Positions 45,026 through 48,706 of a stretch of DNA of 48,728 nt are shown here, piece by piece. Both the position numbers and the translations under genes were made by a program. The notes beneath the pieces are model-generated. The model saw nothing but the letters and a program-made list of their open reading frames with translations. It did not search any database and was not told the DNA's origin. Every line of letters starts with the position of its first letter. Position 1 is the first letter of the stretch. This stretch comes from Candidatus Dormiibacterota bacterium (GTDB lineage: Bacteria; Chloroflexota; Dormibacteria; CF-121), in contig DASZZN010000050.1 in assembly GCA_035544955.1 (NCBI GenBank), positions 1 to 48,728 of the forward strand, given 5' to 3'.

Positions 45026-45850
45026 GTGCGCATCCGGCTGCTGGCCATCGATCTTGATGGCACGCTGGTCAACGACCGGCTGGAGATGGACCCGCGGGAC
45101 GTCGCCGCGGTTAAGGCGGCCACTGCCGCGGGCGTCAAGGTGGTGCTGGCGACAGGCCGCATGTTCAAGTCGTCACAGCGCTATGCGGAACCACTTGGCC
45201 TGACGGGCCCGATCATCAACTACCAGGGGGCGGTGGTCCGCGAGATCGCCAGCGGCGATATCTGGTCTCGGTGCGAGCTGACCGTGCCGATGCAACAGCG
45301 GGTGCTGGCGTTTGCCGAGCCCCGGGACTGGCACGTCAACGCCTATGTCGCCGAGCACGTCTACACGGCGCGCGCGCGGCCCGAGGCGGATCTCTACGCC
45401 CGGATCGCGATGGTGCCCTACGAGGTGGTGGGGCCCCTTTCGAAATGGGTCAAACAGGACTCGACCAAGATGGTCCTCGTCGACCTTGACCCCGCTGACG
45501 TGCCGAAACGGATAGCTGAGTTGACCGACTGGATGGGCGATATCGGGCGGGTCACACGGTCGCTCGATTGGTTCGTCGAGGTGATTAACCCGCAGGTGTC
45601 CAAGTCGCGGGCGCTGGCGATGGTGGCGGACCGGCTTGGCATTGCGCAGGCGGAGGTCTGCGCCATCGGGGATAACACGAACGATGAGGACATGGTGAGT
45701 TGGGCCGGCTTCGGCGTGGCTATGGGCCAGGCGCCCGACGCCCTGAAAGCCGTCGCCAACTACGTCACCGGGCGGATCGGGGAGGCGGGTGTCGCGCAGG
45801 TGATCGAGCGCTTCGTGATCGGGAAAGAGGAACCGCGAATGCGCGCTTAG
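45026..45850 (+). CDS. Cof-type HAD phosphatase
   Basis: A 274-residue HAD-superfamily hydrolase of the Cof/YidA subgroup, which dephosphorylates sugar phosphates and similar small molecules. Motif I is LLAIDLDGTLVND with the Asp nucleophile, motif II VVLATGR, and motif IV GDNTNDEDMVSWAG. A C2-type cap domain lies in between. The start is GTG 45026, directly after the preceding TAG with no gap. It is the last host gene before tRNA-Asp. Confidence 0.9.
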   Translation: MRIRLLAIDLDGTLVNDRLEMDPRDVAAVKAATAAGVKVVLATGRMFKSSQRYAEPLGLTGPIINYQGAVVREIASGDIWSRCELTVPMQQRVLAFAEPRDWHVNAYVAEHVYTARARPEADLYARIAMVPYEVVGPLSKWVKQDSTKMVLVDLDPADVPKRIAELTDWMGDIGRVTRSLDWFVEVINPQVSKSRALAMVADRLGIAQAEVCAIGDNTNDEDMVSWAGFGVAMGQAPDALKAVANYVTGRIGEAGVAQVIERFVIGKEEPRMRA

Positions 45851-45873: not shown

Positions 45874-45883
45874 GGGCTTCCGC

Positions 45884-45957
45884 GGCCCCGTGGTGTAGTG
45901 GTCTAACATGCCTCCCTGTCACGGAGGAGATCGGCGGTTCGAATCCGCTCGGGGTCG
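45884..45957 (+). tRNA. tRNA-Asp (GTC)
   Basis: A 74-base cloverleaf. The acceptor stem is GGCCCCG with CGGGGTC (one G-U), then discriminator G. The anticodon stem is CCTCC/GGAGG around loop CTGTCAC with anticodon GTC at 45918-45920, and the T arm contains TTCGAAT. CCA is not encoded: GTAA follows. The last 39 bases of the gene are overlapped on the opposite strand by the end of the recombinase reading frame, marking this as the probable insertion site of the adjoining element. Confidence 0.95.
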
Positions 45958-47427
45958 TAAATACCACCTGAAAGCCTCGGCGTATACCGGGTATATGTCC
46001 ACGTCGACAACCTGATCATCTCGGATAGCGATCCGGGTGAACACCCGCTCGACGACCTCACGCTGGGCCTCCGGGCTCGACTCCTGAACGGCGGCCGCGA
46101 AGCCACGAACGAGTTCGAGGGCTTGGAGGGGGGACATGCCGGGGGTTGAGGTCGCATAATCCCACCGTCCCTCCTCTTCGGAAATATCCGCGAGAGACTT
46201 GTCCCGGAACGCTTTGTCGCAGAGCCCGTCCCGGTACATCTCCAGGGTGCGCTGCCTCCGCAGGGCGAGCTCGCGGCGCGCCGTCTCCGCCTGGACGTAG
46301 TCGTCATCTCCACCCGTGGCCCGACAGAGGCTGATCACGGCCTTGGCCACGCCCTCGTGGGCAGACACGGGTATGTCGAACCAGCGTAGAAGCTCAAGGA
46401 CTTGGCGTTCCACGACCTCAGCGGTCACCATTCGTTGCGGACAGCGCTCGACACCGATATGGCGGCAGCGATAGCGCCGGCCCCGATTCGACGAGGTGGC
46501 ACCACCCCACATGGGTCCACCGCAGTAGGCGCAGCGGACGATGCCCGCGAGCAAATAGGTGCGATGCTCCGCGGCTTTCTTCTGCCGGCCTTCTCGCAAT
46601 TTCGTAAGCGTGTTCCTGCTTCGGATCGACTGCGAGACTTGTACTTGGGCGTCGGTAATGAGGGGTGGATGACTCCCCTTGATCAGCTCGCGGTCGGGTC
46701 GGCGCCAATGCCGCTTGATGTATCCCAGGTAGAGCTCATGGTTGTTGAGGATCGTGCGGATCGCTTTGTCGGTTATCTCGATGCCGTTTTTCCCGCGATA
46801 GCCGGCAACATTGAGGTGACGTGCCAGCGACACGTCCGAATATTGGCCGGTGCCGTACAGGTCGAAGATCAAACGAACTAGCTTGATCTCGCGTACGTCA
46901 GCGGCAGGCCTGAGGACGCCATGGTCGCGGTCGTAACCGAGTGGGATCGTGCCGCAATGTTCACCGCGATTCTGTTTGACCGCAATGGTTTGCGTCGCTC
47001 GCTCGGCGTCGAGCTCGCGCTCAAGTTCCGACCAAACGACCGCCATGCCCAGAAAGGCACGGCCGTATGGAGTTGTCGTGTCGATCTTCTGGGTGATGCA
47101 AACAAAGTCGATGTTGTGTTTCCGAAGATCTTCGAGGAACGAGAAGTAATCACGTTTGTTCCGCGATAGCCGAGAGAGGCTATGAATCACGACCGCATTG
47201 AATTCCTTTAGGCGACGCTTCAACTCCTGGTAACCGGGACGCTTGTCTGTCCCACCGGAGCTGTGGCCCTCGACATCGGCGAAGACCTCGTATGTGTAGC
47301 CGTCATCCTCACACCAGCGGATGCAGGCGTCTCGCTGCATCTCTGGCGAGATATGCCGCACGCCCTTGTAGACCTGGGATTTGCGGATGTAGATCGCCGC
47401 CCGCTTGATGGTCGCTGAGTTCGCCAC
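45919..47427 (-). CDS. Large serine recombinase (integrase) of a tRNA-Asp element
   Basis: A 502-residue site-specific recombinase with an N-terminal resolvase domain. The AIYIRKSQ segment puts the nucleophile at Ser17, and HSLSRLSRN carries catalytic arginines. After about residue 150 come the recombinase DNA-binding domain and a zinc ribbon (CAYCGGPM, then YRCRH and RCPQR), followed by a coiled-coil-like region typical of large serine integrases. It integrates or excises mobile DNA without sequence duplication by classical tyrosine chemistry. The start is GTG 47427, sharing one base with the preceding small ORF's TAG. The last 12 residues and stop are read from the host tRNA-Asp antisense strand, so the native C-terminus in the excised form may differ. 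Confidence 0.9.
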   Translation of the reverse strand: MANSATIKRAAIYIRKSQVYKGVRHISPEMQRDACIRWCEDDGYTYEVFADVEGHSSGGTDKRPGYQELKRRLKEFNAVVIHSLSRLSRNKRDYFSFLEDLRKHNIDFVCITQKIDTTTPYGRAFLGMAVVWSELERELDAERATQTIAVKQNRGEHCGTIPLGYDRDHGVLRPAADVREIKLVRLIFDLYGTGQYSDVSLARHLNVAGYRGKNGIEITDKAIRTILNNHELYLGYIKRHWRRPDRELIKGSHPPLITDAQVQVSQSIRSRNTLTKLREGRQKKAAEHRTYLLAGIVRCAYCGGPMWGGATSSNRGRRYRCRHIGVERCPQRMVTAEVVERQVLELLRWFDIPVSAHEGVAKAVISLCRATGGDDDYVQAETARRELALRRQRTLEMYRDGLCDKAFRDKSLADISEEEGRWDYATSTPGMSPLQALELVRGFAAAVQESSPEAQREVVERVFTRIAIRDDQVVDVDIYPVYAEAFRWYLRPRADSNRRSPP

Positions 47428-47735
47428 TAAGCCGCCTCTTTGTGCTCCGGATGGTTGCCCGCTGTTGCTCTGCGATGAGCAGCCCAGAACGCGCAGATAA
47501 GTTCCGCGTACGCCTGAATCGCGTCACCGCCCCGGGACTCACAACCGGGGTGTCGCGAAGGTAATCCCGAAGGCGTTGAGCTGTCAAGGGCTTGGATGCT
47601 CGACGTGATCGAGACGTTGGCAGGATTGAAATCATGAACCGGCTGGGCCGACTTCCGCCGAGGAGGCTTTTCCACTCGGGTTTTCCTCGCCTTCGCAGTA
47701 GGATCCAAGCTCTGGAACGACGAGCTTGGCTGCAC
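47427..47735 (-). CDS. Hypothetical small element protein, coupled to the recombinase
   Basis: A 102-residue reading frame with a basic, Ser/Pro-rich N-terminal half (KARKTRVEKPPRRKSAQP) and a more structured C-terminal half (AIQAYAELICAFWAAHRRA). I do not recognise it. Its stop and the recombinase start overlap as TAGTG, which supports translation, but composition is not decisive. It might be a small DNA-binding accessory such as a directionality factor, but that is guesswork. Confidence 0.4.
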   Translation of the reverse strand: MQPSSSFQSLDPTAKARKTRVEKPPRRKSAQPVHDFNPANVSITSSIQALDSSTPSGLPSRHPGCESRGGDAIQAYAELICAFWAAHRRATAGNHPEHKEAA

Positions 47736-47774: not shown

Positions 47775-47848
47775 TCAGGTTTGTCCTGCGACATTGAAGG
47801 GGACAGACTCTGGCCCCTCAGAGGGGCCAGTGCGCGTCAAACCTGACC
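47775..47848. repeat. Nested inverted repeats at the end of the Replic_Relax gene
   Basis: An outer pair, GTCAGGTTT (47775-47783) and AAACCTGAC (47840-47848), encloses an inner perfect 10-base inverted repeat, CTGGCCCCTC and GAGGGGCCAG (47811-47831). The outer right arm overlaps the last codons of the minus-strand gene. The inner hairpin begins 6 bases past its stop, so it could be its terminator, though without a T-tract. The two repeats have different centres. Confidence 0.55.
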
Positions 47849-48706
47849 TCCGGCAGGTCTCCGGTCCCACCAATCGGGCTTGCCTATACAGTTCGCGGCG
47901 GCATAACCGTGCTCCGGACGGCCGGCAAGGCTGCCCAAAGGCGCACGAGCGGTGCCGTCGCTCAGCGCCCGTCGACCCACCTTCCACCAGATCGGTCCCC
48001 GCGACCCGAGTACCTGGAGTTGGTTCACGGTGGTCGTCCAGAAGACGCAGCAACGTTCCTCGGCCGGCAGCTGCTTGGCGAGGCCCTTGTGATAGGCCAG
48101 CTCCTTGTTCAACGAGGGAAACACGAACAGGATATGGCTATGGTCGGCGGCTATTCGCCTCACGAAGTAGCGGATATAGTTCGCCGACTTTCGGAGAAGG
48201 CGGTCGACGGATTCCGTACCCCGGTCCCACTCGAGGAAGAAGATGACTTCTCGGCCTGCAACCAGGTAGCGACCCCAGCCGTCAGGTGCTGGCGCATACT
48301 TTGGACCGGCATCCTCACGCAGCAGTCGCCGGCAACGCTCCTCGCCCACCCAGTGATACAGGCCCTCATTCGCCAGCGAGCCGCTGGCGACGGCCAGCGC
48401 GACGAAGAACGCGTTAGCTCCCAGGTCGTGCCCAACGTTGAAGCAATGATCGCGGTACTCCTCGGCTAGACGAACGAGCGGTCGCGGCTCCCGGCCAAGG
48501 CACGCTGCGAGCACCCCCGCCCCCCGCGGAGACAGCAGCAAGAGTGAGTGCAATCGGGTCCAACCGGGAGGTTCGATCATGAGCCAGCGGTAGATGAGAC
48601 CCTGATCCTTGAGCCATTTGATCCGTCTCTGGGAAACGCGTCGACTGGGGAAGAAGAGCTGTTCGACTTGATCACGATCGAGGTAGCGGTAATTCGATAA
48701 GGCCAT
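47837..48706 (-). CDS. Replication-relaxation (Replic_Relax) family protein, possibly 5'-partial
   Basis: A protein of at least 289 residues, similar to the replication-relaxation family found on actinobacterial and related plasmids and integrative elements. A winged-helix N-terminus (RDQVEQLFFPSRRVSQRRIK) is followed by EEYRDHCFNVGHDLGANAFF, WVGEERCRRLL and a nuclease-like core with VIFFLEWDRGTESVDRLL, where Glu/Asp residues sit as in restriction-endonuclease folds. The frame remains open for the last 22 bases of the window upstream of ATG 48706, so the true start may lie outside. It supports a plasmid-derived or conjugative element to the right. Confidence 0.78.
   Translation of the reverse strand: MALSNYRYLDRDQVEQLFFPSRRVSQRRIKWLKDQGLIYRWLMIEPPGWTRLHSLLLLSPRGAGVLAACLGREPRPLVRLAEEYRDHCFNVGHDLGANAFFVALAVASGSLANEGLYHWVGEERCRRLLREDAGPKYAPAPDGWGRYLVAGREVIFFLEWDRGTESVDRLLRKSANYIRYFVRRIAADHSHILFVFPSLNKELAYHKGLAKQLPAEERCCVFWTTTVNQLQVLGSRGPIWWKVGRRALSDGTARAPLGSLAGRPEHGYAAANCIGKPDWWDRRPAGGQV

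Follow-up and report, generated by a model that had tools for sequence, protein, structure and literature searches.

A large serine integrase gene whose last codons probably come from a host tRNA-Asp gene

Here we ask whether a serine integrase gene that ends inside a tRNA-Asp gene, on the opposite strand, is completed by host DNA, and whether integration alters the C-terminus of the enzyme and with it its directionality, as a sequence-only reading of the locus had proposed. The question reaches beyond this locus: targeting of tRNA genes is generally associated with tyrosine integrases, and the enzyme found at one here is a serine integrase; the island finder Islander is restricted to tyrosine integrases (PMC4383910), and serine integrases at tRNA genes are rare according to PMC3218068 and "not known" according to PMC4383910. 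The window (48,728 bases) is the complete contig C50 of a 3.67-Mb draft genome of a soil Chloroflexota bacterium, here called G000, and the element takes up only about 2.8 kb of it, comprising the integrase gene, a small ORF and a Replic_Relax gene (Table 1). From the comparison of sequences we consider it probable (about 0.8) that the DNA next to tRNA-Asp in the window is the left end of a mobile element, inserted by its integrase at the extreme 3' end of this tRNA gene, and, with the same probability, that this integration swaps the C-terminus of the integrase.

Table 1. Features at the tRNA-Asp locus, in window coordinates
Feature	Position	Strand	Basis
HAD hydrolase gene, conserved host flank of the tRNA	45026..45850	+	Pfam; synteny in relatives
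tRNA-Asp(gtc), intact, target (attB donor)	45883..45958	+	ARAGORN; same gene after HAD gene in relatives
Large serine recombinase (integrase), 502 aa	45919..47427	-	ORF; Pfam; G015 ortholog
Integrase frame within the tRNA, codons 491-502 (RPRADSNRRSPP) and stop	45919..45958	-	
Predicted host half-site B, TTCGAATCCGCTCGGGG (T-loop and acceptor 3' strand)	45938..45954	+	alignment with attP-like arm
Predicted crossover dinucleotide TC (GA in integrase codon CGA, Arg491)	45955..45956	+	inferred
Element half-site P' (GTAAATACCACCTGAAAGCCTCGG), element start	45957..45980	+	
Small ORF, 102 aa, between Replic_Relax gene and integrase	47427..47735	-	ORF list
Replic_Relax (PF13814) gene, element cargo or mobility gene	47837..48706	-	Pfam 1.6e-19

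The coordinates of the ORF and of the ARAGORN tRNA bear out the overlap as first read from the sequence, with 39 nucleotides (12 codons and the stop) encoded antisense to tRNA-Asp, plus one base of the preceding codon. The frame opens with GTG and closes with ...FRWYLR followed by PRADSNRRSPP and the stop (also given as ...EAFRWYLRPRADSNRRSPP and, for the window ORF, ...VDVDIYPVYAEAFRWYLRPRADSNRRSPP). Its product matches Resolvase (PF00239, 1.5e-29), Recombinase (PF07508, 2.9e-10) and Zn_ribbon_recom (PF13408, 5.5e-12), all above the cut-offs, and by profile comparison the solved serine integrases 9iu2, 9dxh, 4kis and 6dnw. The catalytic serine is present (S17 in YIRKS, the Y-x-R-x-S motif) and S17, R86 and R89 are invariant in the alignment. 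An AlphaFold2 model places helices at 375-426 with moderate confidence, in keeping with the architecture of large serine recombinases, coiled coil included. By its Pfam domains, catalytic residues and profile matches the ORF is a large serine recombinase, a predicted enzyme of presumed activity. Membership in the CcrB/CcrC group (SCCmec recombinases) was rejected, the NCBIfam CcrB model scoring 100.8 bits, far under the equivalog cut-off of 900.

Evidence against chance read-through of a dead gene comes from a second genus. The ortholog in G015, a Chloroflexota metagenome-assembled genome (VBID01000151.1) from soil to judge by its isolate name, is intact, 78% identical, located at the same HAD-tRNA-Asp locus and likewise adjoined by the Replic_Relax gene, and it terminates inside the tRNA in ...RPRADSNRRSQP. 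For the G000/G015 pair dN/dS was 0.09, with dS near saturation, and by this ratio both intact genes are under purifying selection. Because the G015 ortholog ends alike and the ratio is low, we ruled out that the overlap is read-through of a decayed frame. No close relatives were found in IMG/VR or in a first GTDB scan, and phages and plasmids gave only distant ones (less than 32% for the best among the matches listed). A Pfam search with the 102-residue ORF returned no match.

Related genomes allowed occupied sites to be compared with others. The HAD gene and tRNA-Asp form a syntenic pair across them, and the same element start, TAAATACCACCTGAAAGCCTCGG or CCAATACCACCTGAGAGCCTCGG, follows the tRNA in G000, G013 and G015, the G013 locus being a relic with just the last 30 integrase codons left. 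In six sister genomes (G001:C248, G003, G004, G009, G010 and G011) the pair is followed by other DNA. The half-site P' follows the tRNA solely at the three occupied sites, to which a relic in G001:C49 can be added, and it also follows a different sequence, the P arm, in G000:C3, G014:C99 and G002:C118. In these last three loci (G000:C3:17330-17468, G014:C99:11169 and G002:C118:484-601) the end of the integrase gene is joined to the P arm and not to the tRNA, and the G000:C3 copy is 91% identical in DNA to the window integrase. All three P-P' copies sit in decayed loci and not in a circular form. We also noted a relic at G000:C22:10587-10627, distant from any tRNA found, that resembles the integrase end adjoining the tRNA end (83% over 41 bp) and bears a palindrome, CTCGGGG...CCCCGAG.

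The gene end of this integrase hence occurs in two forms, RPRADSNRRSPP and the stop at the tRNA, and RPQPDKFRT... at the three P-P' junctions, where the frame continues for differing lengths (RPQPDKFRTRAEYKRR..., 100 residues or more, in G000:C3; RPQPDEFRTPTELS..., 50 residues in all, in G014:C99; RPQADKFRTPPEGE..., 27 residues, in G002:C118). As copies joined to the tRNA and copies joined to the P arm both exist, the element family has two integrase ends and that of the window is completed by host DNA. The P-P' copies are presumably equivalent to the attP of the window element, and given a host-completed frame and an alternative tail, integration would therefore change the C-terminus of the enzyme. 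On both points the sequence-only reading is borne out, the last 12 codons and stop lying in the host tRNA and the other tail being found by sequence comparison at three loci. Related elements, to which it had pointed as a place to look, showed both kinds of end with differing tails. The right end of the element, to which it had also pointed, is absent from the window because the window is the whole contig, and the accompanying duplicate of the 3' part of the tRNA was not found in the window within 3 mismatches. No P half-site occurs within 8 mismatches in the window or in the G015 contig, so that neither right end (G000 or G015) was located. With the right end off the contig, the two att sites of one intact element (attL and attR) are not seen together.

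The P arm itself, GAGTTCGAAACTTGTCCGGTT before GGGGTCG, is followed by other DNA, as in an attR, in G001, G003, G010, G012, G013 and G014; for the host DNA after P common to G001:C151 and G012:C202, no empty site was found in the relatives. The motif GAGTTCGAAACTTGTCCGGTTGGGGTCG had no match within 8 mismatches in five shuffled windows. The sequence P reads GAGTTCGAAACTTGTCCGGTTGGGG followed by TC and G, and the tRNA reads GGTTCGAATCCGCTCGGGG followed by the same TC and G, the two being identical at 9/11 of the inner positions beside TC. The hexamer TTCGAA, which in the tRNA is the nearly universal T-loop, begins 17 bp from TC in the tRNA, but in P its distance from TC is 22 bp. This spacing agrees with the rule derived from LI integrase and others, whereby the zinc-domain motif of attP lies 5 bp further out than that of attB while the inner parts are aligned (PMC3783163), as far as the single half-site compared here (P against the tRNA half-site B) can speak. 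We placed the predicted crossover at TC because GGGGTCG is common to the tRNA, the attP-like and the attR-like copies and because the 5-bp rule fits this centre. The other half, P', is poorly symmetric with P. The flanks after the tRNA agree at 20/22 positions between G014 and G002 and at 16/22 between G011 and each of them, and they are too variable for the native B' to be fixed; the attR-like flank of G003 was dropped as a candidate for it, agreeing, ungapped, at only 4-6/22 positions. In G003 (C362, 4786-4812) the sequence that follows the tRNA (GCCATCCAGAACAAGTTTCGAACC) nearly mirrors the P half-site, which might hint at a different integrase with a symmetric attP.

Placing these observations into a mechanism, attP would occupy the 3' end of the integrase gene, and recombination at the central TC, in the acceptor 3' strand of the tRNA, would interrupt the integrase frame at codon 491. 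While the element is circular this frame would run on into the P arm (RPQPDKFRT...), and in the integrated state it would stop 12 codons into the tRNA. The tRNA remains whole because the element need supply only the discriminator base G, and with a crossover at the last bases of the acceptor stem a long block of identity is unnecessary. The conserved T-loop would supply a zinc-domain motif already placed at the distance typical of attB. The tail itself is most likely disordered and dispensable, and its swap a tolerated by-product of the position of attP, not a switch.

The part of the sequence-only reading that is not supported concerns the effect of the swap. Its proposal that the tail controls directionality can be put as a regulatory switch, in which the long attP-form tail fits integration and the short tRNA tail weakens the enzyme or changes its directionality and so locks the element in. 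The tails of the two states do differ in sequence and length, an effect of this kind has been proposed for the rumA ICEs and, as reported there for the tyrosine integrase of Mx8, the integrated form is less active (PMC4701971), and it has been discussed for DsiB (PMC3146451). Against this, sequence conservation in the integrase stops just short of the crossover codon, and in the AlphaFold2 model (mean pLDDT 67, pTM 0.35; built on a shallow alignment) the last helix spans 480-489 and pLDDT falls below 50 for 488-502, so that the tRNA-form tail is predicted to be disordered. The attP-form tails agree over the DNA half-site only and beyond it differ in sequence, length and stops (27, 50 and at least 100 residues); their further homology as protein was rejected, what they have in common being the half-site and 11-bp repeats alone. 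The directionality of serine integrases is, moreover, credited by established knowledge to the coiled coil and a directionality factor (PMC3783163). We therefore regard the switch as unlikely, and the simplest reading is a tail that is not selected as protein and whose swap is tolerated. A joint proposal seems to us improbable to a similar degree, namely that integration acts as a sensor (the two tails differing in activity or stability, so that the host tRNA signals the integrated state) and that Chloroflexota serine integrases repeatedly evolved the use of the T-loop TTCGAA as zinc-domain motif.

Two further explanations would remove the swap or its site altogether. The element could carry the 3' part of the tRNA in the manner of tyrosine integrases, which is the usual rule for tRNA-targeting islands (PMC4383910), in which case integration would leave the tail unchanged and the host would add nothing. 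The near identity of the G000 and G015 tails speaks for such a block, yet it is to be expected in any case, since both sit in the same conserved tRNA; the P-P' junctions share with the tRNA just GGGGTCG and TCCG beside the centre and lack a T-arm spaced as in the tRNA, which makes this explanation very unlikely. Equally hard to sustain is the notion that the P half-sites belong to a repeat dispersed through the genus that has nothing to do with integration, the P-P' copies being chance junctions. More than 10 further copies of the P half-site do occur in differing contexts, several of them similar over about 30 bp only and some at places without other similarity to the element. Nevertheless three separate P-P' junctions have the same centre, P arms of several genomes share about 100 bp upstream, the P copies of four genomes (G002, G003, G013 and G014) are found downstream of this same tRNA and are all oriented alike, and the 5-bp offset fits the known att rule. 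Integration at the acceptor end of tRNA-Asp with a swapped C-terminus remains the reading we prefer. Around the sites we also observed that P arms (L067, L069, L079, L080, L072 and L084) carry, 60-120 bp ahead of the P half-site, direct repeats of about 11 bp (GCGTCCGCCGA, CCGTCCGCCGA or GCGTCCGTTAA) to which an accessory protein may perhaps bind. In relatives, small islets of 1.3 to 4.2 kb lie downstream of this tRNA-Asp (G014:C99 9850-13300, two in tandem; G003:C362 4786-9006; G013:C107 4239-6634). A P half-site terminates each of them, most lack an integrase, and they look like an accretion array of serine-integrase elements.

The attB of the Myxococcus phage Mx8 lies in tRNA-Asp genes. Its attP lies within int, and on integration host sequence replaces the C-terminus, 13 residues taking the place of 112 (Tojo 1996 and Magrini 1999, as cited in PMC4701971 and PMC4383910), an att site in the integrase gene and a host-derived C-terminus as proposed for the window; Mx8 Int is, however, a tyrosine integrase (PMC4701971; Pfam Phage_int_M). 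The streptococcal ICEs in rumA (Ambroset 2016, PMC4701971) have a serine integrase gene that spans the att site, so that its product has one length and C-terminus in the integrated form and another in the excised form, although their target is a protein-coding gene and not a tRNA. A close precedent by description is DsiB, the ssrA-specific serine recombinase of the vcr islands of Dehalococcoides, in the same phylum, the 3' end of whose gene invariably overlaps attL and is read antisense into ssrA or the adjacent island, and of which perhaps only the circular form is fully functional (McMurdie 2011, PMC3146451). Its islands can stand in tandem at one site, and the weak CcrB-type match of the window integrase is another likeness. 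The window integrase differs in its target, tRNA-Asp, and in a predicted crossover at the acceptor end and not in the T-loop, and its gene neighbours Replic_Relax in place of the dsiA module. Neither the ssrA target nor the six-gene integration module of the Dehalococcoides islands was found at the window locus, which has tRNA-Asp, the 102-residue ORF and Replic_Relax, and membership in that group was rejected. Serine recombinases that use tRNA genes are recorded at tRNA-Leu (8 Mycobacterium AICEs) and tRNA-Ser (phage phiRSM1) in hosts of other phyla, the passage concerned making no mention of gene overlap or C-terminal swap (Ghinet 2011, PMC3218068). The integrases of A118/LI and SPbeta, with solved structures, resemble that of the window in domain architecture and profile match, and LI is the source of the 5-bp att rule. 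Their targets are not known to be tRNA genes. Within the open-access literature the arrangement has been reported previously for few other mobile elements only: a C-terminal change or overlap was known for DsiB, the rumA ICEs and Mx8, and serine recombinases were known at tRNA-Leu and tRNA-Ser, to which we add a tRNA target whose crossover is predicted to lie at the acceptor end, evidence from the half-sites and the occurrence across Chloroflexota.

This spread was estimated in a survey of non-redundant integrase ORFs with a complete 3' flank. Among class-level relatives the frames of 20/60 integrases extend antisense into a tRNA (Asp, Gly, Ile, Lys, Ser, Ala, Arg, Gln, Glu or Val) or a tmRNA, in a sample drawn non-randomly by similarity and best scores, with ORFs taken from stop to stop; a small number of the large overlaps may represent read-through and not att sites. 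In other Chloroflexota the count was 12 of 40 (Ala, Asn, Val and Met), many of them in small single-contig genomes of one family. None of the 334 other ORFs of at least 200 residues in the Chloroflexota loci ends in an antisense tRNA. G000 alone has three such integrases, at Asp (C50), Gly-ccc (C12) and Gln-ctg (C14). The rarity of tRNA use by serine integrases, as stated in the sequence-only reading, thus holds for the literature (PMC3218068) but not for Chloroflexota; at this frequency the arrangement is not an oddity of a single element, and the counts suggest that tRNA use by Chloroflexota serine integrases is common, over about a dozen isotypes. Should this hold generally, it would yield serine integrases whose targets can be predicted and a straightforward way to learn whether a tail encoded by the host affects directionality. 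One integrase ORF of the window's own class (L195, G046:C7) runs 66 nucleotides antisense into a tmRNA, like DsiB. A further set, mostly of Firmicutes, gave 1/73, with none in about 70 Firmicutes loci; the single case (L134, Candidatus Omnitrophota, JAGQKQ010000043.1) is a serine integrase that ends antisense in tRNA-Asn (42 nucleotides), and the arrangement therefore exists outside Chloroflexota too.
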